Assembly (NCBI RefSeq): GCF_021789175.1
Contig: NZ_CP084560.1
Span: 1,426,001 to 1,490,000, forward strand
Reading direction: 5' to 3'
From: Arthrobacter sp. FW306-2-2C-D06B
GTDB taxonomy: Bacteria; Actinomycetota; Actinomycetes; Actinomycetales; Micrococcaceae
Length of the DNA stretch: 64,000 nt
Shown here: piece by piece, positions 10,712 to 41,857 of the stretch
Layout: every line of letters starts with the position of its first letter
How positions within the stretch are numbered: position 1 is the first letter of the stretch
Translations under genes and position numbers: made by a program
Notes under the pieces: generated by a model
The model's database searches: none
What the model was told of the DNA's origin: nothing
What the model saw: only the letters and a program-made list of their open reading frames with translations

Positions 10712-10777
10712 CCCATCTGACTCGCATTTGTTGTCGTTCTGAGCCTCCAAAACGACAACAAATGCGAGTCAGTTGGG
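10712..10777. repeat. Family A palindrome, copy A1
   Basis: Arms of 27 bases (10712-10738 and 10751-10777) with one mismatch and a 12-base loop that contains TGAGCC. The variable arm positions read TTTGTT between GCA and GTCGTT. It begins one base beyond the TGA stop of the DUF885 gene (10778-10780) and lies upstream of the symporter gene. The likely role is a transcription terminator for the DUF885 gene. Confidence 0.9.
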
Positions 10778-12463
10778 TCACCCCAGCAGCGCCCGGCGAA
10801 GCGTATCCAGGCCAACAGAGCCAATGTTCAGTGCATCCGTGTGGAAGGATTTCAGGTCGAATCCCTCGCGGCGTTCGAGCTCAGCCCGGATTTCTTCCCA
10901 AAGCCGCTGCCCCACCTTGTACGACGGAGCCTGGCCCGGCCAGCCGAGGTACCGGGTGAATTCGAACTGGAGCTGGCCCGCGCTGATGGGAAGGTTGGCC
11001 TTGAGGAATTCGAAGCCCTTGTCCGAGGTCCACGTCCCGCTGCCCCAACGTTCTGGAACTTCCAGCTCGAGGTGGACGCCGATATCGAACACCACGCGGG
11101 CGGCGCGCATGCGCTGCATGTCCAGCATGCCCATGTGGTCGCCCGGGTCCTTGAGGTAGCCGAGTTCCAGCATGAGCTTTTCGGCATAGAGGGCCCAGCC
11201 TTCGCCGTGCCCGGAGACCCAGCAGACGTTCCGGCGCCAGTTGTTGAGGAGCTCGCGGCGGTAGACGGCGGTGGCCACCTGGAGGTGGTGGCCGGGGACG
11301 CCTTCGTGGAACACCGTGGTGGTTTCGGCCCAGGTGGTGAAGGTGTCTTCGCCGGCGGGAACGGACCACCACATGCGGCCGGGCCGGGAGAAGTCGTCGG
11401 AGGGACCTGTGTAGTAGATGCCGCCTTCGTCCGTGGGCGCAATGCGGCATTCGAGCGTCTTCATGATGTCCGGGATCTCGAAGTGCACGTCGGCCAGTTC
11501 GGCGACTGCGCGGTCCGAGAGTTCCTGCATCCAGGCCTTGAGGGCATCGGTGCCCTTGATTTGCCGCTCGGGATCGTTGTCGAGGATGGCTTTGGCTTCC
11601 TCGATCGACGCGCCGGGCTTGATTTGCCCGGCTACGCGCTCCTGTTCGGCAATGAGCCTGTCGAGTTCCTGCACGCCCCAGGCGTACGTTTCCTCCAGGT
11701 CCACGGTTGCTCCGAGGAACAAACGTGAGGCCAATGCGTAGCGCTCGCGGCCCACGGCGTCCTTTTCCGGAGCAAAGGGCAGAAGCTCCGCTTCGAGGAA
11801 GGCGGCGAGGCGCAAGTAAGCGGAACGCGCGACGGCGGCACCGGCGTCGAGCTTTTCCTGCAGTTCCGCAGGCAGCGGCTGGCCGTCGATGGTCGCTCCG
11901 GCGGCGAGCTTGGCGAAAAAGCCGTCCTCGGCCGCGTATTTGCTGGTCTGTTCGATGACGATCTTGACTTGGCGGGCCGCGGAGACTTTCCCTGCGTCCC
12001 TGGCCGAACGAAGGGAAACGATGTACCCGTCGATCGCTTCAGCGATGTTGGCCGCGCGGCCGGCGATGTGCTCCCAGTGTTCGGCAGTGTCGGTGGGCAT
12101 GAGGTCGAAGATCGCGCGGATGATTTGGGCCGGAGACTCGATGTTGTTCAGGTCCGCGGCGTCCCAACCGGACTCGTGGATTTCGAGGGCCAGGCCAAGC
12201 CGTTCCCGCATCGCGTCAAGGGTGACGACATCGGAGGCGTCCGTCGGTTCGAGCGCGGCCAGCTCGTCCAGGGTGCGGCGCGCTGCCTTGGCGAATGACT
12301 CCGCGCCGGCAGGCGAGAAGTCCTGGTACTCGGTTTCGTGTCCGGGCAGGCCGAGGGTGGTGGCGAGGGTCGGGTTGAGGGCAAGAAGGGTGTCCGTGTA
12401 GGCGTCGGCGACCGCATCGATGGCAGTCTGGAGGCGTGCCGGAGCTGTGTTAGGAGTAGTCAC
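10778..12463 (-). CDS. DUF885 family protein, putative metallopeptidase-like
   Basis: Cytoplasmic protein of 561 residues (no signal peptide or membrane helix) of the DUF885 family, common in actinobacteria and not well characterised. The family's hallmark is present near residue 375: TTVFHEGVPGHHLQ, with a His-Glu and a downstream His pair resembling a zinc-peptidase site. A conserved ERWGSGTW/KGFEF region and a C-terminal LGWPGQAPSYKVGQRLWEEIR block follow. The start is GTG at 12463; its ribosome site (GTGGG) is poor, so the true start could be slightly downstream. Peptidase activity is an inference from the motif. Palindromic family A repeats flank the gene on both sides. Confidence 0.83.
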   Translation of the reverse strand: MTTPNTAPARLQTAIDAVADAYTDTLLALNPTLATTLGLPGHETEYQDFSPAGAESFAKAARRTLDELAALEPTDASDVVTLDAMRERLGLALEIHESGWDAADLNNIESPAQIIRAIFDLMPTDTAEHWEHIAGRAANIAEAIDGYIVSLRSARDAGKVSAARQVKIVIEQTSKYAAEDGFFAKLAAGATIDGQPLPAELQEKLDAGAAVARSAYLRLAAFLEAELLPFAPEKDAVGRERYALASRLFLGATVDLEETYAWGVQELDRLIAEQERVAGQIKPGASIEEAKAILDNDPERQIKGTDALKAWMQELSDRAVAELADVHFEIPDIMKTLECRIAPTDEGGIYYTGPSDDFSRPGRMWWSVPAGEDTFTTWAETTTVFHEGVPGHHLQVATAVYRRELLNNWRRNVCWVSGHGEGWALYAEKLMLELGYLKDPGDHMGMLDMQRMRAARVVFDIGVHLELEVPERWGSGTWTSDKGFEFLKANLPISAGQLQFEFTRYLGWPGQAPSYKVGQRLWEEIRAELERREGFDLKSFHTDALNIGSVGLDTLRRALLG

Positions 12464-12526
12464 CCCACGAGCCTAACCGCGACAACTCTCTTGTGAAAGG
12501 GTTGTTGCAGATATCCCGGAGGCCAA

Positions 12527-12592
12527 CCCAACTGGCTGGCATTTAATGTCGTTCTGAGCCTTCAGAACGACATTAAATGCGAGCTAGTTGGG
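12527..12592. repeat. Family A palindrome, copy A2
   Basis: Arms of 31 bases (12527-12557 and 12562-12592) with two mismatches. Variable positions read TTTAAT in place of TTTGTT, matched in the other arm. It lies 12 bases past the accE stop (12605) and before the DUF885 start, as expected for a terminator between two genes in the same direction. Confidence 0.88.
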
Positions 12593-12604
12593 TCACCATG
12601 GAAC

Positions 12605-12847
12605 TTAGCCCCGGCTTCGCTTCCAGGCGCCTGGCCCCGGCGTGGGGTCCATGCGCAATTGCTGCCGTCGCAGCCAGTGCCGCGTGCTCGGTTTGGGAGC
12701 TTCGGCTTCCTCCGGCGATCCAAGGGAAGCGACGACGGCGGCAAGGGCCGCGAGCTCTTCCGGCGTCGGGTTTCCCTTGACGACTGAAAGCAAGGGCTCG
12801 GCCGGCGCCGCGTCCGTCGGGCTGGGAACGTTCTCTTCGACGCTCAC
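12605..12847 (-). CDS. accE: Acyl-CoA carboxylase epsilon subunit
   Basis: Small actinobacterial subunit (80 residues) that binds the carboxylase beta subunit and stabilises the alpha-beta complex. It has the family signature [19 protein letters not shown] at residues 22-40, followed by a basic Trp-containing tail ([12 protein letters not shown]). GTG at 12847 overlaps the accD stop codon (GTGA), which shows translational coupling and settles the start. The N-terminal 20 residues are acidic and Pro-rich, as in other epsilon subunits. A palindromic repeat follows the gene. Confidence 0.88.
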
Positions 12848-14427
12848 AGGGGGATGTTTCCGTGCTTCTTGGTGGGCAGGCTGGCGCGCTTGTCGCGAAG
12901 GGCACGGAGGCCCTTGATGATCTGGATGCGGGTCTCCGACGGCACGATGACGGCGTCGACGTAGCCAAGCTCGGCTGCCTGGTAGGGGTTGAGGAGTTCT
13001 TCCTCGTACTGGCGGATGATCTCGGCACGCTTGCCTTCGACGTCGCCACCCGCCTCGGCGACGGCCGCAAGGTCGCGGCGGTACAGGATGTTGACGGCAC
13101 CTTGGGCGCCCATGACGCCGATCTGGGCCGTCGGCCACGCGAGGTTGAGGTCGGCTCCAAGCTTCTTTGAACCCATCACGATGTACGCTCCGCCGTAGGC
13201 CTTGCGGGTGATGACCGTCAGCTTGGGCACGGTGGCCTCGGCATACGCGTAAAGCAGCTTGGCTCCGCGGCGGATGATGCCCTGGAATTCCTGGTCCTTG
13301 CCGGGCAGGAAGCCGGGGACGTCCACCAAGGTGATGATGGGAACGTTGAAGGCATCACAGTGGCGGACAAAGCGGGCTGCCTTTTCCGAAGCGGAGATAT
13401 CCAGGGTGCCGGCGAACTGCATCGGCTGGTTGGCCACGATCCCGACCGTGTGGCCTTCAACCCGGCCATAGCCGATGATCACGTTGGGGGCGTAGAGGGA
13501 CTGCATTTCGAGGAAATGGGCGTCATCCACGATCTGCTCGATGACCTTGCGCATGTCGTACGGCTGATTGGCGGAGTCCGGAATGAGCGTGTCCAGGGCG
13601 AGGTCGTCGTCGTCGAGCTCCAGTTCTTGCTCGTGCTCCAGGACGGGGGCCTCGGAGAGGTTGTTGGACGGCAGGAAGTCAAGGAGTTCGCGGACGAACT
13701 CGATCGCGTCGGCTTCGTCGCTGGCGAGGTACGTCGCGGTGCCGGTGGTGGCGTTGTGCTGGCGCGCGCCGCCGAGGGTTTCCATGTCCACGTCTTCGCC
13801 GGTGACGGTCTTGATGACGTCAGGGCCGGTGATGAACATGTGGGAGGTCTTGTCCACCATCACGACGTAGTCGGTGAGGGCGGGGGAGTAGGCGGCGCCG
13901 CCGGCGCACGGGCCCATGATGAGGGAAATCTGGGGGACGACGCCGGAAGCATGGACGTTGTTGCGGAAGATGTCGGCGAACATCGCGAGTGAGGCGACGC
14001 CTTCCTGGATGCGAGCACCGCCGCCGTCGTTGATGCCCACCATCGGGCAGCCGTTGCGGAGGGCGAACTCCTGGACTTTGACGATCTTTTCGCCGTTGAC
14101 CTGGCTCAGGGAGCCGCCGTAGACGCTGAATTCCTGGCTGTAGATGGCGACGAGGCGGCCGTCGACGGTGCCGTAGCCTGAGACGACGCCATCGCCGAGG
14201 GGTTTCTTCTTCTCCATGCCGAACGCGGTGGAGCGGTGGACGGCCAAGGCGTCGAACTCCACGAACGAATCTTCGTCGAGGAGCATGTCGATGCGTTCGC
14301 GCGCGGTGTTCTTGCCGCGGGCATGCTGCTTCTCGATGGCTTCGGGGCCGGAGGGTTGCTCTGCACGGGCCTGGCGGTCGCGGAAGTCGGCAATCTTTCC
14401 CGCTGTCGTTGTCAGATCGTGGCTCAT
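12844..14427 (-). CDS. accD5: Acyl-CoA carboxylase beta subunit (carboxyltransferase)
   Basis: Carboxyltransferase of 527 residues that moves CO2 from carboxybiotin to acetyl- or propionyl-CoA. The crotonase-like fold is duplicated. The N-domain has [33 protein letters not shown] (acyl-CoA oxyanion pocket) and [20 protein letters not shown]. The C-domain has [20 protein letters not shown] and [17 protein letters not shown] 14427 is preferred over TTG 14430 because GGAG lies eight bases upstream. It is the first gene of accD-accE and works with accA3 at 2.4 kb. In the C-domain pocket 'DVPGFLPG' is followed by acidic residues, as in propionyl-type enzymes, but substrate cannot be settled. The symbol follows synteny with the mycobacterial gene. 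Confidence 0.93.
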
Positions 14428-14599
14428 CAAATGTCTCCGGCTCTGTAGCTGATTTACGCTGGCACTGCTTCGTTAGGCATGCGCTCTTAAGTAGCATCCG
14501 TACAAAGTGCGGGCCCTGTTGGCTAGTCTAATGACGCAAAAGCCACAGACCGCTGTAGAAACCCTACAATTTTCCGACTTCAAGTCGAGCATCAAGCAA

Positions 14600-14617
14600 T
14601 GTTACTCGCCAGTAACA
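14600..14617. promoter_or_regulatory. Candidate operator between accD and the SDR gene
   Basis: Perfect dyad TGTTACT-CGCC-AGTAACA (7-base arms, 4-base spacer) 22 bases before the SDR start codon, in the divergent region shared with accD. Its size is typical of TetR-family operators. No TetR gene is adjacent, so the regulator would be encoded elsewhere. Confidence 0.55.
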
Positions 14618-14638
14618 TAGTTGCGTTACAGTGTCCTC

Positions 14639-15535
14639 ATGACCTCAAGCAACGATGCTTCTGCAAACCGTGCCCTTCCCTACCAGGCGCATGCATCACT
14701 GAAGGGCCGCACCATCCTCATGTCCGGCGGCAGCCGCGGCATCGGCTTGGCAATCGCCACCCGCGCGGCCCGCGACGGCGCCAATATCGTCATCATGGCC
14801 AAGACCGGAGAACCCCACCCCAAGCTGGAAGGAACGGTCTTCACGGCCGCCGAGCAACTGGAAGCAGCCGGCGGCCAGGCGCTGCCGCTCGTGGGAGACG
14901 TCCGCAACGACGGCGACGTTGCCGCGGCGGTTGCCGCCGCCGTCGAACGCTTTGGCGGAATCGACGTCGTCATCAACAACGCCTCGGCGATAGATCTCTC
15001 CCGCACTGACGCGATTGACATGAAACGCTATGACCTCATGCAGGACATCAACGTCCGGGGGACGTTCCTGCTGTCCAAGCTCGCGCTTCCGGCCCTGCGG
15101 AGATCGGGCAACGGCCACATCTTGACTCTTTCCCCTCCGTTGAACCTTGACCCGAAATGGGCCGGCATGCATTTGGCCTACACCATGGCCAAGTACGGTA
15201 TGAGCCTCACCACTCTGGGACTGGCCGAAGAACTCAAGAACGACGGCGTGTCGGTCAACTCGCTGTGGCCCTGCACCCTGATCGACACTGCCGCCATCCG
15301 GAATATGCCTGGCGGGGAACAGATCGTCCAAGCCGCCCGAGGCTCGGACATCATGGCCGACGCGGCCCACGCTGTCCTGACCGGGGCGCATCTGACCGCA
15401 GACTCAGCCGGTTCGGCAAGTTCGGGCAACTTCTACACGGACGAACAGGTGTTGCGGGCTGCGGGTGTTTCGGACTTCAGGCCCTACAGTCTGGGGGCCC
15501 CGGAGGAGAAGCTGGTGCCGGATATCTTCCTCTAA
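14639..15535 (+). CDS. Short-chain dehydrogenase/reductase, HSDL2-like
   Basis: Cytoplasmic NAD(P)-dependent oxidoreductase of 298 residues. Cofactor motif GGSRGIGLAIA is near residue 30 and NNASA near 118. The catalytic serine is in ILTLSPP near 162, and the YTMAK tyrosine-lysine pair near 180. The long segment after the cofactor site (MAKTGEPHPKLEGTVFTAAE) is typical of the HSDL2/SDR13C group, which is linked to fatty-acid metabolism. ATG 14639 was chosen over an upstream TTG because that codon lies next to the dyad at 14600-14617. It is divergent from accD, consistent with lipid metabolism (inference). The substrate is unknown. Confidence 0.87.
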   Translation: MTSSNDASANRALPYQAHASLKGRTILMSGGSRGIGLAIATRAARDGANIVIMAKTGEPHPKLEGTVFTAAEQLEAAGGQALPLVGDVRNDGDVAAAVAAAVERFGGIDVVINNASAIDLSRTDAIDMKRYDLMQDINVRGTFLLSKLALPALRRSGNGHILTLSPPLNLDPKWAGMHLAYTMAKYGMSLTTLGLAEELKNDGVSVNSLWPCTLIDTAAIRNMPGGEQIVQAARGSDIMADAAHAVLTGAHLTADSAGSASSGNFYTDEQVLRAAGVSDFRPYSLGAPEEKLVPDIFL

Positions 15536-15582
15536 GCGGACAACTTCTTCCGGGACCAGCCTGGCTGGATAGGATTCTGTCT

Positions 15583-16491
15583 ATGGATGCCGAACAGCCT
15601 GCCAGCACCGAACCACGTGCCCCGCGCCCGGGCCTGGACCGTGATGCCCTGCTTCATCCCGACTTCCTCGCGGCCACCGGTATTTCGCAATTGAAGATCG
15701 TGGAGACCACCGGCTCCACGAACGCCGATCTGCTGCGCGCCGTCACCACCGAGCCCAAGGAATGGTCCGACCTCGCAGTCCTCACCGCCGAGCACCAGAC
15801 GGCGGCGCGGGGCCGGCTCGACCGTCATTGGGAATCTCCCGCACGTTCGGCGATTTCCGTTTCGATCGTCCTGCGCCCCGTGAATTCCGAAGGCCTGCCC
15901 GTCCCGACCCAGAGCTACTCCTGGCTCTCCCTCCTGGGTGCGCTGGCCTTGCGTGAGACGCTCCTGGAAACCGCCGGCCTGCCTGCCGAGATCAAGTGGC
16001 CCAACGACGTCCTCGTCCGGGGCAGGAAGATCGCCGGCATCCTGGCCCAGATGGGGCCGATGGGCGACGGCTCGGTTCCGGCGGTGATCCTGGGTACCGG
16101 CCTCAACGTCACGCTCGGCGAGGATGAATTGCCTGTCCCCACGGCAACCTCCCTTCTGCTTGAAGGTGCCACCACCACGGACCGCACCGTGCTTCTTCGG
16201 AACTATCTCTCCCGCTTCGCGTCGCTGTACCGCAGTTTCTGCAACGCCGACGGCGACCCTACAGCGGGATTGGCCGGCGGCTCCTCCCTGCACAAGCGGG
16301 TAGAAGCTGTCATGGTCACCTTGGGACGCGAAGTTAAAGCTCATCTGCCCGGCGACCACGAATTGGTGGGGCATGCGTCCAGGTTGGATGAATATGGTTC
16401 CCTTTTAGTGGTGGACCATGGTGGCCGCGAGCACGTCGTGACCGCCGGCGACGTTGTCCACCTGAGGGCTACCGAAAGCGGTTATGCGTAA
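15583..16491 (+). CDS. birA: Biotin--[acetyl-CoA-carboxylase] ligase
   Basis: Ligase of 302 residues that activates biotin with ATP and attaches it to the lysine of AccA3. The catalytic domain begins at about residue 30 and has TTGSTNADLL, the biotinyl-AMP loop ARGRLDRHW, IKWPNDVLVRGRKIAGIL and GTGLNV. A small C-terminal SH3-like domain ends in LLVVDHGGREHVVTAGDVVHLR. There is no N-terminal helix-turn-helix, only a Pro-rich leader, so this is a group I enzyme that should not repress biotin genes. The last eight bases overlap the next gene. Its place beside accD/accE matches other actinobacteria. Confidence 0.92.
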   Translation: MDAEQPASTEPRAPRPGLDRDALLHPDFLAATGISQLKIVETTGSTNADLLRAVTTEPKEWSDLAVLTAEHQTAARGRLDRHWESPARSAISVSIVLRPVNSEGLPVPTQSYSWLSLLGALALRETLLETAGLPAEIKWPNDVLVRGRKIAGILAQMGPMGDGSVPAVILGTGLNVTLGEDELPVPTATSLLLEGATTTDRTVLLRNYLSRFASLYRSFCNADGDPTAGLAGGSSLHKRVEAVMVTLGREVKAHLPGDHELVGHASRLDEYGSLLVVDHGGREHVVTAGDVVHLRATESGYA

Positions 16492-17119
16492 AGAGCTCCT
16501 GCGTGGGGAGCAAGTCATCGTGATCACGCGGCAGCAGCCCAGGATGCTTTTTGGTCCCGTCCTGGCGTTCATCCTGGTCCCCGCTGCGGCCGCCTTCGCC
16601 TGTGCCTGGATAGTCAAGGGCGGACCGGGCAAGTTGCTTCCGGTCATCACGAGCGACTGGACCCAATGGTTGGTCACCGCGTGCCTGGCCATCGTGGCGA
16701 TCGTGCTGCTCGGCTACAGCCTCCCGCGATTCATCCGCTGGCGTGGCATACGGTACATCCTGACAAGCGGCCGGATAGTTGCCCGTTTCGGAATGCTTCG
16801 CCGGGGCGACTGGCAGGTTCCGCTGGCCGCGGTGCGAAGCGTGGGTATCAAACAATCGCTGCTCCAACGGATATTGCGCTCCGGGAATATATCCTTGGAT
16901 ACCGGGCACCCCGGCGAGGCCGTCCTCGCGGACGTCCCGGAGGTCGGCAAGTTTCGAAGTTTCATCCTGGATGCCATGGCCGAGCTTCCGACGAATGTCA
17001 GGTTTGGCCCCGGCGCCGTGCCGGAGGCCGGCCATTTTGACAGTTTTGCTGGACCAGTTGACTACCCGGATGCCGCGTTGCCCTGGGATATGAGAGAAGG
17101 TGGAAGAGATGAGCGTTGA
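16484..17119 (+). CDS. Bacterial PH-domain membrane protein
   Basis: Membrane protein of 211 residues with a short cytoplasmic start (MRKELLRGEQVIVITRQQ) and two transmembrane helices at about 22-45 and 65-88. A bacterial PH domain follows, about 90-170: RGIRYILTSGRIVARFGMLRRGDWQVPLAAV split over conserved strands, then SGNISLDTG. The C-terminal 40 residues are hydrophilic. The role of this family is not established. The start overlaps birA by eight bases and the end overlaps the adenylate cyclase gene, so the genes are co-translated. A small membrane protein next to birA is also found in mycobacteria (recollection, not checked). Confidence 0.82.
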   Translation: MRKELLRGEQVIVITRQQPRMLFGPVLAFILVPAAAAFACAWIVKGGPGKLLPVITSDWTQWLVTACLAIVAIVLLGYSLPRFIRWRGIRYILTSGRIVARFGMLRRGDWQVPLAAVRSVGIKQSLLQRILRSGNISLDTGHPGEAVLADVPEVGKFRSFILDAMAELPTNVRFGPGAVPEAGHFDSFAGPVDYPDAALPWDMREGGRDER

Positions 17120-19174: not shown

Positions 19175-22949
<3,775 letters not shown>

Positions 22950-22957
22950 GGTCGCGC

Positions 22958-23025
22958 GACGCTCGCTCACTTATGTTGGGTTTTCGGCGGACGCTCGCTC
23001 GCTTGTGTTGGCTTTTTGGGCGACG
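22958..23025. repeat. Family C 32-bp repeats, second cluster
   Basis: Two full units begin at 22958 and 22990 (GACGCTCGCTCAC then TATGTTGGGTTTTC, and GACGCTCGCTCGC then TTGTGTTGGC), and a third fragment at 23022. Spacing is exactly 32 bases, the same period and start motif as the arrays at 5064. It occupies the whole gap between the inositol-phosphatase gene and the convergent monooxygenase gene. Confidence 0.8.
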
Positions 23026-24390: not shown

Positions 24391-24546
24391 GGGAAGTCCT
24401 TTCGTTGTGTCCTGGCTGCCAATCAACCACGCGGCACCGGCCCTGCGCCAGCATCGCGAAACCTTCCCGCAACAACCCGAAACCGGGCTTCACAACCCGA
24501 AACCGGACTCAATCCGGCGCCACGCGAAGCAATGTTGAGGCGCCCC

Positions 24547-24612
24547 GATGCTCGCTCACCAATGTGGGGTGTTCCTCCGACGCTCGCTCACTGATATCTG
24601 AGCGAGCGCCGG
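24547..24612. repeat. Family C 32-bp repeats, third cluster ending in a palindrome
   Basis: Units start at 24547 (GATGCTCGCTCACC) and 24579 (GACGCTCGCTCACTG), 32 bases apart. The second runs into its own reverse complement: GCTCGCTCA at 24582-24590 pairs with TGAGCGAGC near 24599-24607 around a GATATC centre. It lies in the 297-base gap before the acetyltransferase gene. Earlier in the same gap (about 24473-24510) is an imperfect duplication of AACCCGAAACCGG. Confidence 0.75.
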
Positions 24613-24687
24613 GTCCCGGGTGATAGTTCGGTCACGGAAACGCCGCTTTTGCACCCCGGCCCCTGCGGACCCGACTACCATGGATCA

Positions 24688-25257: not shown

Positions 25258-25638
25258 ATGCGCAAGACATTCGGCACGGGTTCGGTCTGGGAACAGACAC
25301 TTGGATACTCCCGGGCGGTCCAGGTGGACAACACGCTCTTCATTTCGGCCACGGCGGCCAGCGGCCCCGATGGCATCGTCGGCGATGACTTCTACTCGCA
25401 GACCAAATACATCCTCGAAAAGCTCGAAGCGGTCCTGGCTGACGCCGGGTTCTCTTACGAGGACGTCGTGCAGTCCAAGCTCTACCTGACCGACATCAGC
25501 AAGTGGGAAGACGCCGGCCGCGCACACGGCGAGGTCTTCGGCGAGATCCGTCCCACCCTTTCCCTGGTCCACGTCCTGCCGTTCCTCGACCCGGAAATGC
25601 TGGTCGAAATCGAACTGGTAGCCCAGAAGAGCGCCTAA
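25258..25638 (+). CDS. RidA/YjgF-family protein without the usual catalytic arginine
   Basis: Small cytoplasmic protein of the Rid superfamily (126 residues), normally a trimer. Family core: GYSRAVQVDNTLFISATAA near 16-34, YTKYILEKLEAVLADAGFS-like helix region, VVQSKLYLTDIS, and the end PEMLVEIELVAQ. In E. coli RidA an arginine before LP in the C-terminal strand binds the carboxylate of the imine substrate. Here the matching stretch is LVHVLPF, with Val at that place. It therefore probably belongs to a Rid subgroup that is not an imine deaminase. ATG 25258 follows a GAAAGG site. It ends next to palindrome A3. Confidence 0.82.
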   Translation: MRKTFGTGSVWEQTLGYSRAVQVDNTLFISATAASGPDGIVGDDFYSQTKYILEKLEAVLADAGFSYEDVVQSKLYLTDISKWEDAGRAHGEVFGEIRPTLSLVHVLPFLDPEMLVEIELVAQKSA

Positions 25639-25642: not shown

Positions 25643-25708
25643 CCCAACTGACTCGCAGTAGATGTCGTTTTGACGCCTCATAACGACATCTACTGCGAGT
25701 CAGTTGGG
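25643..25708. repeat. Family A palindrome, copy A3
   Basis: Perfect 27-base arms (25643-25669 and 25682-25708) around a 12-base loop. Variable arm positions are GTAGAT, mirrored exactly in the opposite arm. A further AGCAG/CTGCT match flanks it. It sits between the convergent ends of the Rid gene (25638) and the response regulator gene (25716), so it can serve both strands as a terminator. Confidence 0.92.
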
Positions 25709-25715: not shown

Positions 25716-26390
25716 CTACTTGGGGGAGAGCCGCGCGGGGACGCCGTAGCGGTGCTCGGGGCGGCCGGTGCTGCCGTAACGCAGCTGGATCTCGACGGCG
25801 CCATCATCGGCGAGCGAGGACAGGTACCGTTGCGCCGTGGCGCGCGAGACGCCCACCCGTTCGGCCACTTCCGTGGCCGAGTATTGTTCCCCCGGTGCCA
25901 AGGAATCCAGTACGGACGCTTCGGTCGCCGAACGGGGCTTTCCCGACGGCGCCACGTCACCGGCGACGAGCGCCCGCTTGGCCCGTTCGATCGTGTCCTG
26001 GTCCACGGCATGTTGGCGGCCAAGGATCCGCCGGTATCTGGCATATGAACGCAGTTGCTGCGACAGAGATTCAGCTGTGAACGGTTTCAGCAGATACGCC
26101 AAAGCCCCGCGGCGCAGGGCTGTCCTGATGGACACGGCGTCGGACGCTGCCGTCAGCATCATGGCATCCACATCGAGTTGGCCCAGAAGATCCAGGCCCG
26201 AACCGTCCGGCAGATAAACGTCCAGCAACACGAGGTCCGGCCGAAGGCTATGCACGGACTGTAGCGCCTGCGCCGTGGATCCCACCGGCGCCAAGGCAAG
26301 GAAACCGGCCACAGATTCCACGTAGGCGGCATGGAGCTTGGCGACGTGGAAATCGTCATCCACGATCAACACCCTGAAGTCTTCGCTCAC
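25716..26390 (-). CDS. Response regulator, CitB/DcuR type
   Basis: DNA-binding response regulator of 224 residues, partner of the kinase upstream. The receiver domain (about 5-120) has acidic DDD near 11-13, phosphoacceptor Asp in VLLDVYLPDGSG (about 56), the Thr/Ser site MMLTAASD and lysine in YLLKPF. The C-terminal domain has a helix-turn-helix, SATEVAERVGVSRATAQRYL (about 170-190), as in CitB/DcuR proteins. The start is GTG, overlapping the kinase stop by one base (TAGTG). Given its neighbour, it likely activates the citrate transporter gene at 28431. Confidence 0.9.
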   Translation of the reverse strand: MSEDFRVLIVDDDFHVAKLHAAYVESVAGFLALAPVGSTAQALQSVHSLRPDLVLLDVYLPDGSGLDLLGQLDVDAMMLTAASDAVSIRTALRRGALAYLLKPFTAESLSQQLRSYARYRRILGRQHAVDQDTIERAKRALVAGDVAPSGKPRSATEASVLDSLAPGEQYSATEVAERVGVSRATAQRYLSSLADDGAVEIQLRYGSTGRPEHRYGVPARLSPK

Positions 26391-29862: not shown

Positions 29863-29925
29863 CAACGCGGGGTCACTTACGGCCCATTCCGGACCTCCGG
29901 ATGGGCCGTAAGTGACCCCGCGTTG
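29863..29925. repeat. Family B palindrome, copy B1
   Basis: Perfect 25-base arms (29863-29887 and 29901-29925; CAACGCGGGGTCACTTAC and so on) with an inner TCCGG/CCGGA stem in the loop. It lies 13 bases after the citrate transporter stop and before gatC, as a terminator would. The arms are identical to copy B2 at 61603. Confidence 0.92.
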
Positions 29926-31859: not shown

Positions 31860-33367
31860 TGTCTACCGACGCCATCCTCAGCTTCGAAGAGGCCATGGAG
31901 AAGTACGATCCGGTCCTTGGCTTCGAGGTCCACGTGGAGCTCAACACCAAGACCAAGATGTTCTCCTCCGCCCCGAACGTCTTCGGCGACGAGCCGAACA
32001 CCAACGTCAACGAGGTGGACCTCGGCATGCCCGGCGTCCTGCCCGTGGTGAACAAGACGGCGGTGGAGTCCTCCATCAAGATCGGCCTTGCACTGAACTG
32101 CAAGATCGCCGAGTACTGCCGCTTCGCCCGGAAGAACTACTTCTACCCGGACACCCCGAAGAACTTCCAGACGTCCCAGTACGACGAACCCATCGCGTAC
32201 GACGGATACCTGGACATCGAACTCTCGGACGGCACCGTGTTCCGCGTCGAGATCGAACGTGCACACATGGAAGAAGACGCTGGCAAGCTGACCCACATGG
32301 GTGGCGCTACGGGCCGCATCCAGGGTGCCGACTACTCGTTGGTGGACTACAACCGTTCCGGTGTTCCGCTCGTGGAAATCGTCACCAAGCCGATCGAGGG
32401 CGCAGGCAGCCGGGCACCCGAGCTCGCCAAGGCCTACGTTGCCGCGGTGCGCGAAATCGTCAAGAACCTCGGCGTTTCCGACGCCAAGATGGAACGCGGC
32501 AACGTCCGCTGCGATGCCAACGTCTCCCTGCGCCCGCACGGTCGCGAACGTTTCGGCATTCGATCCGAGACGAAGAACGTGAACTCGCTGCGCGCCGTCG
32601 AGCACGCCGTCCGTTACGAAATCCAGCGCCACGCCGCCGTTTTGGATTCCGGCGAGCCGGTCATCCAGGAAACGCGCCACTGGCACGAGGACACGCGCAC
32701 GACGACGTCGGGCCGGGCCAAGTCGGACGCCGACGACTACCGCTACTTCCCGGAGCCGGACCTCGTTCCGGTCCTGGCGTCCCGTGAATGGGTTGAAGAG
32801 CTCCGCGCGACGCTGCCCGAACCGCCCGCGGCCCGCCGCAAGCGGCTCCAGGCCGACTGGGGCTATTCGGACCTCGAGTTCCGCGACGTCGTGAACGCCG
32901 GCGTCATGGACTCCATCGAGGAAACCATCGCCGCCGGTGCAAGCGCCTCCGTGGCCCGCAAGTGGTGGATGGGCGAGATCGTTGGACGCGCCAAGACGGC
33001 CGACGTCGATCCTTCCGAACTCGGCGTCACGCCGGCAACCATCGTGGAGCTCAACAAGCTCGTCGAGGGCGGCAAGATCAACAACAAGATGGCTTCCCAG
33101 GTGCTCGACGGCGTCCTCGCCGGCGAGGGCACCCCGGCGGAGATCGTCGAGAAGCGCGGCCTCGCCGTTGTGTCCGACGACGGCCCCCTGCTGGAAGCGA
33201 TCGACGCCGCACTTGCGGCCCAGCCCGACGTTGCGGAGAAGATCCGCAGCGGCAAGCTTCAGGCCATCGGAGCGATCGTCGGCGGAGTCATGAAGGCCAC
33301 CCGTGGGCAGGCCGACGCCGGCCGCGTCAAGGAGCTGATCCTGGAGAGGCTCGGCGTCGAAGGCTAG
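31859..33367 (+). CDS. gatB: Asp-tRNA(Asn)/Glu-tRNA(Gln) amidotransferase subunit B
   Basis: tRNA-binding kinase subunit of 502 residues. It phosphorylates the mischarged glutamyl (or aspartyl) group and passes it to ammonia from GatA. Family blocks are [19 protein letters not shown] (about 20-38), [19 protein letters not shown] (about 95), [14 protein letters not shown] (about 163), [13 protein letters not shown] (about 208) and [13 protein letters not shown]. The helical YqeY-like tail ends at residue 502. ATG 31859 shares one base with the gatA stop (TGATG). A disrupted family A palindrome starts inside its stop codon. Confidence 0.96.
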
Positions 33368-33508
33368 TCCCCACCGACTCCAAACCCAACTAGGTCGCAG
33401 TTGTTGTCGTTATGAGCCGTCAAAACGACAACAACTGCGGGGCCCACGCCGCCCGGGTTCCCTGGCCGAGCGAAGCGAGGTTAGGGAGGCGGTGGGGACT
33501 AGTTGGGT
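33366..33508. repeat. Family A palindrome, copy A4, split by an extra segment
   Basis: The core stem is intact: CGCAG plus TTGTTGTCGTT (33396-33411) pairs with 33424-33439 around a TGAGCC loop. The outer left half ACCCAACTAG (33384-33393) finds its partner CTAGTTGGGT only at 33499-33508, about 60 bases late. The added stretch contains GAGCGAAGCGAG. A second 11-base pair, AGTCCCCACCG (33366-33376, starting in the gatB stop) with CGGTGGGGACT (33490-33500), crosses the first. Confidence 0.8.
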
Positions 33509-35602: not shown

Positions 35603-36925
35603 ATGAACCACAACGTGACCCGCAGGTCATTCCTTTCCTTTGCGGCTGCCGGTGCCGCCGTCGTTTCGCTCGCCGCCTGCGGCGGGAACAGTGCCGCCGG
35701 GGGTAGCGCAGCCAAGGCCGCCTACGCTGCTCCCGCCAAGGACCTGAGCGCCGAGCTGAGTTACGCCATCTGGGACGCGGCGCAAAAGCCCGCGATGCAG
35801 AAGATCGTGACCGAATTCAACAAGCAATACCCGAACATCAAAGTCACCATCGACGTCACGCCGTCGAAGGGTTCGGCCTACTGGACGAAGATCCAGACCC
35901 AGGCAAGCAGCAACACCCTGCCGGACGTTTTCTGGATGAATGGCCCGCATATCAAGCTTTATGCGCAAAACAACCAGCTGATGCCCTTGGACGGCCTGGT
36001 GTCCGGCAAGGCGGTGGATACAGCCAATTACCCCAAGGCGTTGGTCGATCTATACACCGTCAACGGTGCGTTCTACGGGGTTCCCAAGGACTTCGATACC
36101 AGCGCACTCTTCTACAACAAGGCCCTCTTCAAGGAAGCCGGGGTGTCCGAGCCGACGTCCTACTGGACGTGGGACGACGTGAAATCCGCCGGTGCCAAGC
36201 TGTCCAAGTTCTATCAGGGCAAGGGCGTCTACGGGTATGCCGGTGACCTCACAGGCGGCCAGACCAGCTACTACAACACCATGATCGAAGCCGGCGGGAC
36301 CATCATCTCGACTGACGGCAAGAAGTCCGGATACGACTCCGCCGGCTCAATCGCCGGCCTCCAGTTCTGGCGGGACCTCATCGAATCCGGCGTATCTCCC
36401 TCGATGCAGCAGTTGACGGATACCTCTTCGAGCGACATGTTTACGTCCAGGAAATTGGCTATGACCATGGACGGCTCCTGGACCGTCGGGCCCGCCCAAA
36501 AGGCCCTCGGTGACGATCTGGGCATTGCCAACCTCCCGAAGGGGCCGAAGAGCAACCAGAGCGTGATCCACGGACTCGCCAACGTGATTCCCGCCAATGC
36601 GAAGAACCCGGCCGCTGCGCAGGCCTTCGTGGCCTTCCTGGGAACCCAGGATGCCGCCAGGATCCAGGCAGAAACCGGAACCGTCATTCCGGCCTTCAAC
36701 GGCACGCAGGATGCCTGGGTCAAGTCTGTTCCCTCTGTTGACCTCAGCGTTTTCCTTGAGCTGGCCAAGGATGCTTCGCCCTACCCGGCGTCGGCAAACA
36801 CGGCCGCCTGGAACGAACTCGAGAACACCTTGCTGCCGCAGGCGTTCGCCGGGACCAAGCCGGTTGCGGATGTTGCCAAGGACCTTGCCAGCCAGATGAA
36901 TGCCGCGCTGGCCAAAGAATCATGA
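35603..36925 (+). CDS. Sugar ABC transporter substrate-binding lipoprotein
   Basis: Extracytoplasmic sugar receptor of 440 residues (type 1 solute-binding family) for a CUT1 importer. The N-terminus has a twin-arginine signal (TRRSFLSFAAAGA) and a lipobox ending in LAAC at about residue 31, so it is Tat-exported and lipid-anchored. The body has IWDAAQKPAMQKIVTEFNKQ and PDVFWMNGPH, then YGVPKDFDTSALFYNKALF, the usual hinge segments. ATG 35603 follows GGAG and starts at the signal peptide; the longer frame begins in unrelated sequence. Its stop overlaps the next start (ATGA). The ligand is unknown. Confidence 0.92.
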   Translation: MNHNVTRRSFLSFAAAGAAVVSLAACGGNSAAGGSAAKAAYAAPAKDLSAELSYAIWDAAQKPAMQKIVTEFNKQYPNIKVTIDVTPSKGSAYWTKIQTQASSNTLPDVFWMNGPHIKLYAQNNQLMPLDGLVSGKAVDTANYPKALVDLYTVNGAFYGVPKDFDTSALFYNKALFKEAGVSEPTSYWTWDDVKSAGAKLSKFYQGKGVYGYAGDLTGGQTSYYNTMIEAGGTIISTDGKKSGYDSAGSIAGLQFWRDLIESGVSPSMQQLTDTSSSDMFTSRKLAMTMDGSWTVGPAQKALGDDLGIANLPKGPKSNQSVIHGLANVIPANAKNPAAAQAFVAFLGTQDAARIQAETGTVIPAFNGTQDAWVKSVPSVDLSVFLELAKDASPYPASANTAAWNELENTLLPQAFAGTKPVADVAKDLASQMNAALAKES

Positions 36926-37872
36926 AAGCCCGGACCCTGACGCCGGCTTCCAAGAGCGGCCGTGCCGCCGAAGCAACAGGGGATCGCCGCAAAGGAAAAT
37001 CCAAGTCGGATGGCTGGTGGCCATGGTTGTTCGTGGTGCCTACCGTTGCGGGCATCGGCGTTTTCTACCTTTGGCCGATCGTCCAGACGTTCTACTACAG
37101 CTTCACAAAGTGGGGAGTCTTCGGCGGAACCAAGTTCATCGGCCTGGACAACTACGTTCGGATGTTCGCGGATTCCACTATTCCGCAGTCGATCTTCAAC
37201 ACGCTGATCTATACGGTCGTCGTGCTGCTGGGGATTCCCATCGCGGTCGTTCTCGCGTCCTTGATCGAGCGTCCCGGCCTGCGCTTCGCAGCCCTGTACC
37301 GGACGCTGTACTTCATTCCCTACATCACCATGCCGGCCGCCGTCGGGATCGTGTGGAGGCTGATCTACAACGGTGACTTCGGACCCATCAACTGGTTCCT
37401 GGGCTTGTTCGGGATCCAGGGGCCTTACTGGACATCGACTCCGGGGTTTGCACTCCTTGCCGTGGCTACCGTGGGGCTTTGGATGTCGCTGGGATTCAAC
37501 CTCATCATCATCAGCGCGGGACTGCGCGAGATCCCCAGGGAGCTCTTCGAAGCCGCGGAAATGGACGGGGCCAGCCGGGTCCGCCAATTCTTCAGTATTA
37601 CCGTTCCGCTGCTGACTCCCAGCATCTTCTTTGTCACGATCGTCACCGTGATCAGCGGCTTCCAGCTGTTCGATTTGCTGTACGTGATGATGGGGAAAGC
37701 GAACCTGGCCATGCCGCAGACGCAAAGCCTCGTGTACATCTTCTACAACCAGGCCTTCCTGCAGAACGACAAGGGCTATGCGGCAGCCATCGGCATCCTG
37801 ATCCTGGTCATCATCGCTCTTCTGACCGCTTTCCAATTCCGTATCCAGAAGAGGTGGGTCAACTATGTCTGA
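36922..37872 (+). CDS. Sugar ABC transporter permease (MalF/UgpA-like)
   Basis: Inner-membrane permease of 316 residues with a basic hydrophilic N-terminus (about 1-30) and six predicted helices. The EAA loop that docks the ATPase is ELFEAAEMDGASRVRQFFSI near residue 210 (EAA, then Gly three residues later). N-terminal PWLFVVPTVAGIGVFYLWPI is typical of CUT1 permeases. ATG overlaps the stop of the binding-protein gene by four bases, and its end overlaps the second permease by eight. No ATPase gene lies in the operon. Confidence 0.92.
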   Translation: MKARTLTPASKSGRAAEATGDRRKGKSKSDGWWPWLFVVPTVAGIGVFYLWPIVQTFYYSFTKWGVFGGTKFIGLDNYVRMFADSTIPQSIFNTLIYTVVVLLGIPIAVVLASLIERPGLRFAALYRTLYFIPYITMPAAVGIVWRLIYNGDFGPINWFLGLFGIQGPYWTSTPGFALLAVATVGLWMSLGFNLIIISAGLREIPRELFEAAEMDGASRVRQFFSITVPLLTPSIFFVTIVTVISGFQLFDLLYVMMGKANLAMPQTQSLVYIFYNQAFLQNDKGYAAAIGILILVIIALLTAFQFRIQKRWVNYV

Positions 37873-38827
37873 ATCGATGCTCTCCACAAAAAGCGGTGTC
37901 GAATCGCGACGGATCGGAGCGGCTGAAACCAGCCCATCTCACGCTGGAGGCAAACCCTCGGGACCCTCGGTCCGGGAGGGCACAGGCCGCGGCACCAAAG
38001 GCACCAAAGGAGGCAAGCAAGGCTCGAACGTCCTGGCACATTGTGTGCTGAGCATTGGCGGGTTGGCCATGATCTCGCCCCTCCTGTACCAGATCGTCAT
38101 GTCGCTTTCGACGAACGCCGAAGTCCAGAGCACGCCACCCACCCTGTGGCCCGGCATTGTCCAGTGGCATAACTTCGCGGATGTCTTCACGTCCATGAAC
38201 TTCGGTTCACAGCTTTGGGTGACGGTCGCGATCACCGTCATCAGGGTGATCGGCCAGGTGCTCCTCTGCTCCATGGCGGGCTATGCCTTCGCGCGGATGC
38301 AGTTCCGGTTCAAAGGGCCAATACTGGCCATTGTCTTGTCGATCATCATGGTGCCGTCGCAGTTGTTCCTGATCCCGCAGTACCAGATCATCCAGAACCT
38401 GGGTTGGCTGAACAGCATCGCCGGCATCGTGGCTCCGGGCATCTTCAGCGCCTTCGGCCTGTTCCTGATGCGCCAGTTCTTCATGGGGCTCCCGGACGAA
38501 CTCGAAGACGCGGCACGGCTCGATGGTGCCAATCCGTTCCAGATCTTCTTCCGGGTCATGCTGCCCCTCGCGGCAAACGGCTTGTGGGCACTGGTCATCA
38601 TTACCGTGCTGTGGTCCTGGAATGACCTCTTGTGGCCTTTGGTGGTGACGTCGACGGCGAACGCCGCACCGTTGAGCGTCGGGCTTTCGAACCTCCAGGG
38701 TGAACACGCCAACAATTACCCGATCCTCATGGCGGCATCGCTCATGGCCATGGCGCCAATCCTGATCATGTTCCTGCTCATGCAGAAGCGTGTCATGGCA
38801 GGCATCGGCCGCTCCGGACTCAAGTAA
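37865..38827 (+). CDS. Sugar ABC transporter permease (MalG-like)
   Basis: Second permease subunit, 320 residues. The N-terminal 50 residues are hydrophilic, Gly/Lys-rich and likely disordered (SVREGTGRGTKGTKGGKQG), longer than usual. Six helices follow, with the EAA-type loop at ELEDAARLDGANPFQIFFRV near 217. NFGSQLWVTVAITV and WSWNDLLWPLVV are standard for MalG-type proteins. It overlaps the upstream permease by eight bases. A later ATG (near 38068) would shorten the tail but lacks a better ribosome site, so I kept this start. Confidence 0.9.
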   Translation: MSESMLSTKSGVESRRIGAAETSPSHAGGKPSGPSVREGTGRGTKGTKGGKQGSNVLAHCVLSIGGLAMISPLLYQIVMSLSTNAEVQSTPPTLWPGIVQWHNFADVFTSMNFGSQLWVTVAITVIRVIGQVLLCSMAGYAFARMQFRFKGPILAIVLSIIMVPSQLFLIPQYQIIQNLGWLNSIAGIVAPGIFSAFGLFLMRQFFMGLPDELEDAARLDGANPFQIFFRVMLPLAANGLWALVIITVLWSWNDLLWPLVVTSTANAAPLSVGLSNLQGEHANNYPILMAASLMAMAPILIMFLLMQKRVMAGIGRSGLK

Positions 38828-38866
38828 GAACCAAGTGGACACCCACGTAGGAAAGGATCGCAGCCC

Positions 38867-40588
38867 TTGACGGAACAGAACCCGGTCCAGCAGGACGGCT
38901 GGTCGTTCGTGCTGGCGGACTCCCTGGAAAAGGTCTACCCGGACGCTCCACCAAGGCCGTTCGACAGGACCATCCCGATGTCCGTTTTCCCCGGTGAGAC
39001 CGCGTCGATCCAGGTGGCTCTCCGGCCGCCCATGAAACACGACTTTCGGCTGTCGGGGCCGTTGGAAGTTGCAATCGATGGTCCGGCGGCAGCGTTTGCC
39101 TCCATTTCACAGGTTGAGCTGGTGCCTTGTTCCTTGGCGGCATTCCCGCAGCATGACGATGGCTATGACCGGGACGCTCCCGGTTTGTATCCCGACCTTC
39201 TGCGGCCTGCCCCGGATGGTCTGATCCAGCCCCTCTACGGGCAATGGACGGCTGCATGGATCGACCTCGTGGTGCCATCCGCCGAGAATGCGGGCGATCA
39301 CGAATTCGGGATCTCGGTACGGGACGCGGAGGGCCGCGTGATCTTCGGCACCACTATCGACGTCACGGTCCTCGCGGCTCAAGCCCCGGAACTGGACATC
39401 GTGAACGCCCACTGGTTCCACTGCGACGGCTTGGCGAGCCATTACGGCGTCGGCGTGTTCAGCGAGGAGCATTGGTCGATCATCGACGCCTTCATGGGGT
39501 CTGCGGCAAGGATGGGAGCCAACTCGCTCCTGACACCGACGTGGACGCCTCCGTTGGACACAGCCGTCGGGGGAACGCGGCTGCCCACCCAACTGATCGG
39601 GATCCGCGAAGACTCCGGCTACCGCTTTGATTTCAGCAAGCTGCGGCGCTGGGTGGGACTTTGTGTCAAACACGGCATCCAGTACGTGGAAATCGCCCAC
39701 TTGTTTACGCAATGGGGTGCCAAGGCGACGCCGGCGATCTATGTCGAAACCGCGGAAGGCCTGGAACGGCGCTTTGGCTGGGACGTGCCGTCGACGTCGC
39801 CGTCTTACCGGGAGCTGATGGCCGAACTGCTGCCCGCACTGCGTTCCTTCCTGGCAGAGCACTGGTCTCTTGACCGGGTCATTTTCCATATTTCCGATGA
39901 ACCCGAGGGTGCCGAAGCCCTGGCGGGGTACCAGCAGGCAAAGGACGTCGTCGCGGATCTCCTGCACGGGCTGACGGTGGTTGACGCCCTGAGCGACTTT
40001 GAGTTCTACCGCAGCGGAGCAGTGCCGACACCGGTGGTGGCAAGCGATGCCCTGGCGCCGTTCCTGGCGGCGGGCGTGAAGGATCTGTGGGTCTATTACT
40101 GCGTCGCGCAGGACACCGGCGTCGCCAACAGGTTCATTTCCATGCCTTCAGTGCGGAACCGGGTGTTGGGCCACCAGCTCTTCGCCCTGGCATGTGCGGG
40201 CTTCCTGCATTGGGGATTCAACTTCTACAACACAGCCCACTCGCTGGCGCCCGTCGACCCGTTCAAGGACACCTGTGCCGGAGGGGCTTTTCCGGGCGGC
40301 GACGCCTTCATGGTCTACCCGGGACCGGATGGGGTGCCGTGGGAGTCGATCCGTTACAAGGTGTTCGCCCAGGCCATGTGGGACCATCGGGCACTCTCGC
40401 TCCTGGCCACGCTGGCCGGTCGCGAGGAGGTACTGGCCCTCATCGATTCGAACGGCTCGGGCGGGAGCCTCGCCATGGATAGCTTCAGCTACGACCCCCT
40501 TCATTACCGAAGGGTCCGCGAGCTGGTCAACCAGGGAATCGCGCAGCGCGTGGGTCAAACGCGCCAGCGCATCAACGTATCAAGTTAG
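38867..40588 (+). CDS. DUF4091-containing putative glycoside hydrolase-like protein
   Basis: Protein of 573 residues; the family is poorly characterised. A beta-rich N-terminal part (about 1-165) and a TIM-barrel-like middle (about 170-430) with FHISDEPEGAEALAGYQQAK (near 342, plausible catalytic acid D/E) are followed by DUF4091 (about 440-550), which reads DPFKDTCAGGAFPGGDAFMV and PGPDGVPWESIRYKVFAQ. There is no signal peptide, so it should act in the cytoplasm on the imported sugar, unlike many secreted glycosidases. The start is TTG 38867, with AAAGGA twelve bases upstream; a downstream start is possible. It lies 39 bases after the permease and before the Gfo/Idh gene. Confidence 0.82.
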   Translation: MTEQNPVQQDGWSFVLADSLEKVYPDAPPRPFDRTIPMSVFPGETASIQVALRPPMKHDFRLSGPLEVAIDGPAAAFASISQVELVPCSLAAFPQHDDGYDRDAPGLYPDLLRPAPDGLIQPLYGQWTAAWIDLVVPSAENAGDHEFGISVRDAEGRVIFGTTIDVTVLAAQAPELDIVNAHWFHCDGLASHYGVGVFSEEHWSIIDAFMGSAARMGANSLLTPTWTPPLDTAVGGTRLPTQLIGIREDSGYRFDFSKLRRWVGLCVKHGIQYVEIAHLFTQWGAKATPAIYVETAEGLERRFGWDVPSTSPSYRELMAELLPALRSFLAEHWSLDRVIFHISDEPEGAEALAGYQQAKDVVADLLHGLTVVDALSDFEFYRSGAVPTPVVASDALAPFLAAGVKDLWVYYCVAQDTGVANRFISMPSVRNRVLGHQLFALACAGFLHWGFNFYNTAHSLAPVDPFKDTCAGGAFPGGDAFMVYPGPDGVPWESIRYKVFAQAMWDHRALSLLATLAGREEVLALIDSNGSGGSLAMDSFSYDPLHYRRVRELVNQGIAQRVGQTRQRINVSS

Positions 40589-40598
40589 GAAAGTACTC

Positions 40599-41783
40599 AT
40601 GGACCTCAAAGTAGGCATCGTCGGATTCGGCTTGCGGTCGTCGCTGTGGCGCCACGCGCACAAGCCCGGCCACGGTTCGGAAGTCACGGTCGTGTGCGAC
40701 CTGGGCGAGCGCGGCAGGGCGGATGCGGCCGAGAAGATCCCGACGGCGGTCATCACCGACGATCTGGACGTCCTGTTGGACTCCGGCCTGGACGCGGTCC
40801 TGGTCCTGACTCCCGACAGCCAGCACGCCGCCGTCGCCGTCCGGACTCTGAAAGCGGGCATCCCGACTTTCTGCGAGAAACCGCTTGACGTCACGCTGGA
40901 GGCGGCCGACCTTATCCTCCAGACGGCCTTCGACACCGGAACGCGCCTCTACGTGGGCCACAACATGCGGCATATGCCGGTGGTGGTGCAGATGCGCGAG
41001 ATCATCCAGGCCGGGACCATCGGAGACGTCAAGGCAGTCTGGTGCAGGCACTTCGTGGGGAACGGCGGCGACTACTATTTCAAGGACTGGCACGCCCAGC
41101 GTGCCAACACCACGGGGCTGCTGCTGCAAAAGGGCGCGCACGATATCGACGTCATCCACTGGCTCGCCGGCGGGTACAGCGCCAAGGTGCAGGCGATCGG
41201 CGAGTTGGCCGTTTATGGGGGCGTCGCTTCCCGCCGGGACAACACGGCGCGCCGGATGGGTGATTGGTTCTCCGTGGACAATTGGCCCCCCACCGAACAG
41301 ACGGACCTCGCCGAGACGATCGACGTCGAGGACATCTCGATGATGAACATGGTCCTGGACAACGGGGTGCTCGCCTCGTACCAGCAGTGCCATTTCACCC
41401 CGGACTATTGGCGGAACTACACGGTGATCGGCACCAAGGGCAGGATCGAGAACTTCGGTGACGGGGCCGGCGACCAGATCTATGTATGGACCACCCGGAC
41501 AACCTCCGGCTTCGCCGAGCCCGACCAGAAGGTGGAGATCCGCGACGGAGAAGGCGGCCATGGCGGTGCGGACCCCTTGCTCATAGCTGAGTTCCTGCGC
41601 TTCGCCAAGGACGGGGGAACCACGGCGACTTCGCCGATCGCGGCCCGGGAGGCCGTGGCCGCCGGAGTGCTTGCCACCGAGTCCCTCCGCGGCGACGGTT
41701 GCGCCCGCGAAGTTCCGGCGTTGCCAGAAGACCTCGTGGAGTACTTCAACGCAGGCCAGCCGGCCCGGGTCCGGGAACTCTAG
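40599..41783 (+). CDS. Gfo/Idh/MocA-family NAD(P)-dependent oxidoreductase
   Basis: Dehydrogenase of 394 residues for a sugar or sugar derivative. The Rossmann fold is at the N-terminus (KVGIVGFGLRSSLWRHAHKP, about 3-22), with the family motif GIPTFCEKPLDVTLEAADLI near 85-104, whose EKP lysine is catalytic. The C-terminal half has GGLLLQKGAHDIDVIHWLAGG-type segments (TTGLLLQKGAHDIDVIHW near 172), with the paired Asp/His of the active site. ATG 40599 has AGGAAA upstream and lies ten bases after the DUF4091 gene, so it closes the operon. It ends before palindrome A5. The likely role is oxidation or epimerisation of the freed sugar (inference). Confidence 0.9.
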   Translation: MDLKVGIVGFGLRSSLWRHAHKPGHGSEVTVVCDLGERGRADAAEKIPTAVITDDLDVLLDSGLDAVLVLTPDSQHAAVAVRTLKAGIPTFCEKPLDVTLEAADLILQTAFDTGTRLYVGHNMRHMPVVVQMREIIQAGTIGDVKAVWCRHFVGNGGDYYFKDWHAQRANTTGLLLQKGAHDIDVIHWLAGGYSAKVQAIGELAVYGGVASRRDNTARRMGDWFSVDNWPPTEQTDLAETIDVEDISMMNMVLDNGVLASYQQCHFTPDYWRNYTVIGTKGRIENFGDGAGDQIYVWTTRTTSGFAEPDQKVEIRDGEGGHGGADPLLIAEFLRFAKDGGTTATSPIAAREAVAAGVLATESLRGDGCAREVPALPEDLVEYFNAGQPARVREL

Positions 41784-41791
41784 AGGCCGCG

Positions 41792-41857
41792 CCCAACTGA
41801 CTCGCATTTGTTGTCGTTTTGAGGCCCCATAACGACAACAAATGCGAGTCAGTTGGG
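41792..41857. repeat. Family A palindrome, copy A5
   Basis: Perfect 27-base arms (41792-41818 and 41831-41857); loop TTGAGGCCCCAT. Variable positions are TTTGTT, as in A1. It lies between the convergent ends of the oxidoreductase and LysR genes. The last codons and TGA stop of the LysR gene (stop 41849-41851) are inside its right arm. Confidence 0.92.

Follow-up and report, generated by a model that had tools for sequence, protein, structure and literature searches.

In REPIN-RAYT systems, as set out in passages of two published accounts, many short palindromes are dispersed between genes, and a gene flanked by the same palindromes mostly occupies one or a few conserved places; the palindromes are more numerous where this gene is present (PMC8049555, PMC3733652). 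The latter account describes these palindromes as tagged at one end with GTAG or CGTC (PMC3733652). Here, we describe a palindrome family, Family A, from Arthrobacter sp. FW306-2-2C-D06B. The window is the whole 64,000-nucleotide stretch that was analysed (bases 1426001-1490000 of the single 4,564,406-base contig NZ_CP084560.1, whose first gene is dnaA); coordinates of the source genome at large carry the prefix G000 where needed. We consider it probable that Family A copies are the solo and non-coding part of a dispersed system of repeats, whose coding partner is a gene of ~314 codons bracketed by two copies of the same palindrome. By analogy, this two-part system resembles REPIN-RAYT in its apparent working but is not a member of it.

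Family A elements are 66 bp long and have the ends CCCAACT...AGTTGGG. Five copies in the window, reported by an earlier sequence-only reading, were confirmed at their coordinates. The pattern GCA-6N-GTCGTT matches ten times in the window (five pairs), against 0.53 expected, and none of 100 shuffles reached 10. Further copies, for which that reading had proposed a search, are abundant: the core GTCGTT-N12-AACGAC forms 114 dyads in the source genome, and a reversed control pattern forms none. Core copy number within the genus ranges from 0 to 114. Copies recur as pairs ~1.06 kb apart in several genomes. One such pair of the source genome, outside the window (3768904/3769969), brackets the gene for a 314-residue protein. 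Relatives of this protein (46-96% identity) are flanked by same-core palindromes in seven further genomes, and the arms of the flanking palindromes shift as the protein diverges.

Comparison between genomes reveals a unit with similar flanks, co-variation of these flanks with the protein, and differing states of its sites. A scan of bacterial genomes gave 323 relatives of the gene, of which the best 80 were compared (loci L217-L296). These are mostly named Arthrobacter, Pseudarthrobacter, Paenarthrobacter, and Specibacter; one record is labelled Sporosarcina. At a hairpin threshold of 15, which was our own choice, palindromes are present upstream at 61 loci, downstream at 54, and on both sides at 47. 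As a control, both-side palindromes were found at 9 of 836 genes of the source genome, similar on the two sides in four cases. The upstream palindrome mostly ends 60-63 nt before the gene start, and the downstream palindrome often begins 6 bases inside the gene. Left and right palindromes are more alike within a locus (median 0.875, 47 loci) than between loci (0.575; P = 1e-26). The fixed unit is a palindrome, ~62 nt with TGTGGATAA, the gene, and a stop codon that falls within or next to the second palindrome. The motif TGTGGATAA, which we take to be the reverse complement of the DnaA-box consensus, lies no more than 75 nt upstream at 73 of the 80 loci; at 70 of these 73 it precedes the start by 45-48 nt. 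Its background is 6 occurrences in 1.10 Mb of the source genome. It is also found upstream of 18 of 20 distant paralogues, palindrome-less ones included. An aldo-keto reductase gene (G000:3528700-3529665) also lies between two copies, an arrangement that we take as chance because of the copy density; 4 of the 9 control genes likewise lie between similar copies. One related genome, G066, has two copies spaced much as around this gene.

The bracketed protein is predicted, from the model of a close relative, to join an N-terminal AbiEi-like part to a C-terminal nuclease part like those of Vsr and I-Bth0305I; the fold matches come from the VIA list alone. Both the catalytic fold (as modelled) and the catalytic residues of I-Bth0305I-type homing endonucleases were recovered, and the nuclease-type residues are invariant in 39 sequences. 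A profile search of solved structures with the bracketed protein gave no match at E 1. Of three proteins compared with NCBIfam, two were assigned to no family and one gave a very weak match.

Sites with and without the gene can be compared directly. When grouped by the flanks they share, 71 loci resolve into 12 places. A single place holds 44 of them, and 43 of these 44 match the source genome's site on both flanks. This common place has a formyltransferase gene (PF00551) on one side and a gene for an MFS transporter on the other. At threshold, 30 of the 44 loci have the full palindrome-gene-palindrome arrangement; the source genome (copy 1190711) and G075 have a solo palindrome alone at this place. 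Occupied and empty alleles therefore occur at one site, as expected of a homing endonuclease, with no order of states implied. The source genome's own bracketed gene is at a different place, common to eight named relatives.

We find that the arm types of solo copies mostly match the resident gene. Copies with the resident gene's arm type make up 20 of 20 in G278, 9 of 9 in G282, 14 of 20 in G280, and 7 of 8 in G283; the flanks of the gene itself are counted where their ends are exact, and copies were read in six of the nine genomes with matches. Palindrome distance is correlated with protein distance across 30 loci (r = 0.58), more so for the N-terminal part of the protein (0.65) than for the C-terminal part (0.39). 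Copy number also follows the gene. Among 36 same-genus genomes, the median is 12.5 core copies in the 26 genomes with an intact relative of the gene and 0 in the 10 without (P = 2.7e-5). "Intact" (full length, E up to ~1e-75) was set after the matches had been seen, and relatedness was ignored in this test, as it was in the orthologue counts and shuffles reported below.

Related genes are found beside other palindromes. The source genome has seven relatives of the nuclease gene at E 1e-20, one of them bracketed by Family A. The paralogue G000:3554502-3555386 is flanked on both sides by relatives of a second palindrome family (CAACGCGGGGTCACTTACGGCCCAT...), one exact core copy of which adjoins it. 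Members of this second family are 63-67 bases long with perfect 25-27-base arms; there are six exact core copies in the genome, and the window holds the family at 29863-29925 and 61603-61669. Paralogue 365000-365929, flanked by palindromes on both sides, and paralogue 4148834-4149766, with a palindrome seen on one side, lie beside copies with other arms (CATCGATTGCTCC...), and yet another palindrome directly follows paralogue 1310187-1310990. No palindrome was found at the remaining two paralogues of the source genome. Twenty distant paralogues were fetched, three of them from the source genome. L299, L305, L314, and L316 have palindromes close to both ends and L301 has one on one side; the truncated L304 has them upstream and further downstream. 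It is possible, though in our view somewhat less than an even chance, that such palindromes form an undescribed class of dispersed palindromic DNA in Micrococcaceae. Each lineage of AbiEi-plus-Vsr-type nuclease would own and spread its palindrome family, the N-terminal part would read the variable mid-arm, and expression would be tied to replication via the DnaA box.

The window copies illustrate the variety of Family A sites. A1 (10712-10777) has the hexamer TTTGTT in both arms and abuts the stop codon of a DUF885 gene (10778-12463, minus strand). Outer arms are not always matched, as seen in A1 (CCCATCT vs AGTTGGG) and A2 (CTGGCTGG vs GAGCTAG). A2 (12527-12592; TTTAAT in both arms) lies 251 nt past the preceding stop codon and 63 nt ahead of the next gene. 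Its orthologous site in G066 has TTTGAT in both arms, a compensatory change, and has its outer left arm replaced by another palindrome, family B. A3 (25643-25708; GTAGAT) lies between the convergent genes 25258-25638 (plus strand) and 25716-26390 (minus strand), a convergent site whose DNA was matched in all 61 genomes compared within the genus. In several further species, a different palindrome or hairpin occupies this slot: among 18 intergenic stretches, read from 30 fetched loci, many have a palindrome or hairpin, and the families differ. A5 (41792-41857; TTTGTT) is likewise placed between convergent genes, 40599-41783 (plus strand) and 41849-42784 (minus strand); its orthologous copy is present in G066 and absent in G075. 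A4 (33366-33508), previously described as a split copy, does contain a copy, but as a hybrid of Family A (~33385-33439) with a family B palindrome (~33440-33497) and the end ACTAGTTGGG. Family B (GGGCCCACGCCGCC...) joins or replaces one Family A arm next to TGC, both here (33440-33497) and at G000:986116, 2355356, 4011971, and 4476670.

Other elements were also seen. The Family A copies at G000:3768904, 3879316, and 4538856 (left ends) each border, on the left, on an IS481-type element (ends TGTACTGCCC...GGGCAGTACA); at 3768904 and 4538856 it sits in CCCAACTAGC, with the 6-base duplication ACTAGC. The window also holds an inverted array of repeats with 32-base spacing (GACGCTCGCTCACGTATG.../ATTGGTGAGCGGGCGTTTGG...) at 5058-5285, with relatives at 22952-23025 and 24541-24614. 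At gathering scores, the only Rfam match in the window is a SAM-IV riboswitch (58334-58449; 109.5 bits).

Family A arms match well above chance. We read 113 of the 114 copies with their flanks and dropped six in which one or both arms were not Family A, leaving 107. Identical hexamers are present in both arms of 56 of these 107, and shuffled arms gave a mean of 23.4 and a maximum of 38 (10,000 trials). The sequence-only claim that hexamers always match is thus exact for all five window copies but false for the genome, where matching is nonetheless far in excess of chance. Positions 8-9 of the arms match at chance (42/107; null 39.3), and most loop positions, judged by eye, likewise do not match above chance. 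In relatives, arm matching was read in 16 of 18 counted copies from G285 and in all 20 copies from each of G280 and G278. Positions 16-23 are matched above chance in G285 (103/128 letters; null 77.8) and G280 (139/160; null 117.0), and marginally in G278 (153/160; null 149.0; P = 0.054).

Orthologous sites show how this matching changes. Starting from the source genome, which is in every pair, 20 of 29 comparisons were used (13 of 14 with G066 and 7 of 15 with G075), one of them read in its inner part only. The nine others comprise three sites without a copy, the hybrid site in each of the two relatives, one long gap, one copy with a family B left arm, one deleted base, and one internal duplication. 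Compensatory double changes, from one Watson-Crick pair to another, number 15 in the 20 pairs, against 6.4 in a column-preserving shuffle (P = 0.0004). The arms thus tend to stay matched, as the sequence-only reading held. Its argument that simple copying would not produce such pairing is too strong, since replacement of the whole interior, or repair of one arm, can also yield matched arms. Indeed, matched arms might be a mere by-product, without selection on the fold, of template-switch correction between arms or of whole replacement by conversion. We put this close to an even chance, and it is compatible with the two-part system proposed above. Of 647 position pairs, 29 changed on both sides, where independence predicts 6.8 and the column-preserving shuffle 16.6; several double changes that are not Watson-Crick resemble swapped arms. 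Site 33366-33508 fits as well: G066 has a plain A copy there, G075 has B enclosed by A-like ends, and the source genome has the A/B hybrid. Uniform correction should, however, match positions 8-9 too, where matching does not rise above chance.

A different explanation is that selection on RNA pairing maintains the palindromes as transcription terminators or as hairpins at mRNA 3' ends, with the bracketed gene as one carrier among many. Their positions are suggestive. With gap classes and gene ends from a home-made gene caller, 50 of the 113 copies lie in convergent gaps, 56 in tandem gaps, 5 in divergent gaps, and 2 inside a predicted gene, so that the earlier statement that all copies sit at gene 3' ends is correct for most of them. 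Convergent gaps are over-represented (50/111 vs 110/572; P = 2.6e-8) and divergent gaps under-represented (5/111 vs 158/572; P = 3.8e-9), relative to a background of 1.10 Mb around copies, seven control stretches, and the window, copy-holding gaps included. A total of 128 gene 3' ends overlap a copy or lie no more than 30 nt from it. Overlap of a gene with the copy's first nine bases is seen at 19 gene ends; these bases, CCC AAC TRR, read Pro-Asn-stop unless TRR is TGG. The different hairpins in the A3 slot of other species are also in keeping with a role at transcript ends. There is no U-tract, however: TTTT follows within 10 nt at 1 of the 128 gene 3' ends, and the T fraction is 0.16. Transition mismatches in tandem copies have no sense-strand bias (G.U 42 vs A.C 39; P = 0.82), and RNA pairing is therefore not visibly the thing preserved. 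At gathering scores, no Rfam family matches the palindrome sites. Moreover, termination leaves the bracketed gene, the spacing, and the co-variation with the protein unexplained. We consider this explanation unlikely. We reject Rho-independent termination as the cause of arm matching, on the missing U-tract and strand bias, and keep it as a possible side role; the earlier suggestion of a fold that acts in RNA at the ends of transcripts is accordingly unsupported as a cause. Even less probable, in our judgement, is that the protein is a DNA-binding regulator or chromosome organiser, its nuclease domain having some other role, and that the palindromes are its immobile binding sites. The predicted AbiEi-like fold and the DnaA-box-like motif upstream of both close and distant relatives would suit such a protein, as would the concentration of copies (80 of 113; P = 1e-5) in the dnaA-centred half of the chromosome. 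Against this, the sites are placed at gene 3' ends, with divergent gaps avoided, core copy number varies across the whole range given above, and the nuclease-type residues are invariant. In addition, G075 lacks 3 of the 15 comparable copies at the orthologous sites, and one further site there holds family B.

If Family A and the bracketed gene do form one dispersed system, the N-terminal AbiEi-like part may bind the palindrome, and the protein may cut or nick palindromes or DNA hairpins that carry its own arm type. Palindromes would then spread, and their arms be re-matched, through repair templated by another copy or through self-templated synthesis in the folded-back strand. Copies would persist mainly beside stop codons, either because they do least harm there or because they act as hairpins at mRNA 3' ends. 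Several observations weigh against such a system. Mobilisation by the nuclease is inferred from comparison, and neither movement nor cutting was observed. For the nuclease part, no Pfam match exceeds its curated cut-off. Upstream palindromes are lacking at 19 of the 80 loci and downstream palindromes at 26, at threshold, and 14 of the 20 distant paralogues have no palindrome close to either end. The 16 solo copies read in G285 do not share one arm type, and the exact-end pattern has no match in G277 beyond the gene's own two flanks. The correlation between palindrome and protein may stem from shared descent. G011 has 15 core copies and only a truncated relative of the gene, itself near such palindromes. 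The copies are old: all 14 comparable sites are occupied in G066, and 3 of 15 are empty in G075. Finally, direct repeats of 3-8 nt around 90 intact copies are not above shuffles, giving no sign of target duplication; repeats of 2 nt (11 vs 6.0) are within the shuffle range.

Family A can be set against several known elements. Integron attC sites have the ends RYYYAAC...GTTRRRY. Family A ends often fit this pattern (purine at -1 in 65/90; pyrimidine at +1 in 64/90), but the ends of sister families differ; on a comparison of the ends, we provisionally set an attC identity aside. Like miniature inverted-repeat transposable elements (MITEs), Family A copies are small, repeated, and found at gene ends, and they contain inverted repeats. 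Unlike in MITEs, the related coding unit has a whole palindrome, not one half, at each end. A MITE with target duplication was rejected, as no duplication surrounds the 90 intact copies. The unit also differs from AbiEi antitoxins of type IV toxin-antitoxin systems, as it has a single gene between close palindromes and a predicted nuclease domain. The 47 both-flank loci have palindromes close to either end of one gene, an observation that concerns the unit itself. I-Bth0305I-type homing endonucleases differ in lacking the AbiEi-like N-terminal part predicted here, and in that our gene is bracketed by two palindromes, has more than 100 solo sites, and is intergenic rather than intragenic.

Among the open-access papers searched, titles and the beginnings of abstracts made no link between DUF559 or AbiEi proteins and palindromic repeats, and no account of such a pair was found. 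One Arthrobacter species appears in a published table of palindromic elements (PMC12306157), indicating that such palindromes have already been counted in print. If our interpretation is correct, it would provide a role for DUF559/MTES_1575-type proteins. Solo and occupied sites, together with a natural series of arm types, make their specificity directly testable.

The closest comparison is with REPIN-RAYT. Both have intergenic palindromes, a palindrome-flanked gene at few conserved places, and copy numbers that track the gene. PF01797 (Y1 transposase) has no match in the source genome at E 0.001, and the same search was positive in 5 of 14 control genomes. We therefore rejected a RAYT-driven repetitive extragenic palindrome, the flanked gene having a different predicted fold. 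The enzyme here appears to be an AbiEi-like protein with a Vsr/I-Bth0305I-type nuclease, not a Y1 (HUH) transposase. Furthermore, Family A is 66 bp long without a GTAG or CGTC end tag, and the source genome has several related genes (the seven matches noted above). If this reading holds, a nuclease unrelated to RAYT transposases has come to accompany dispersed palindromes, which would suggest that the palindrome-plus-enzyme way of life arose more than once.

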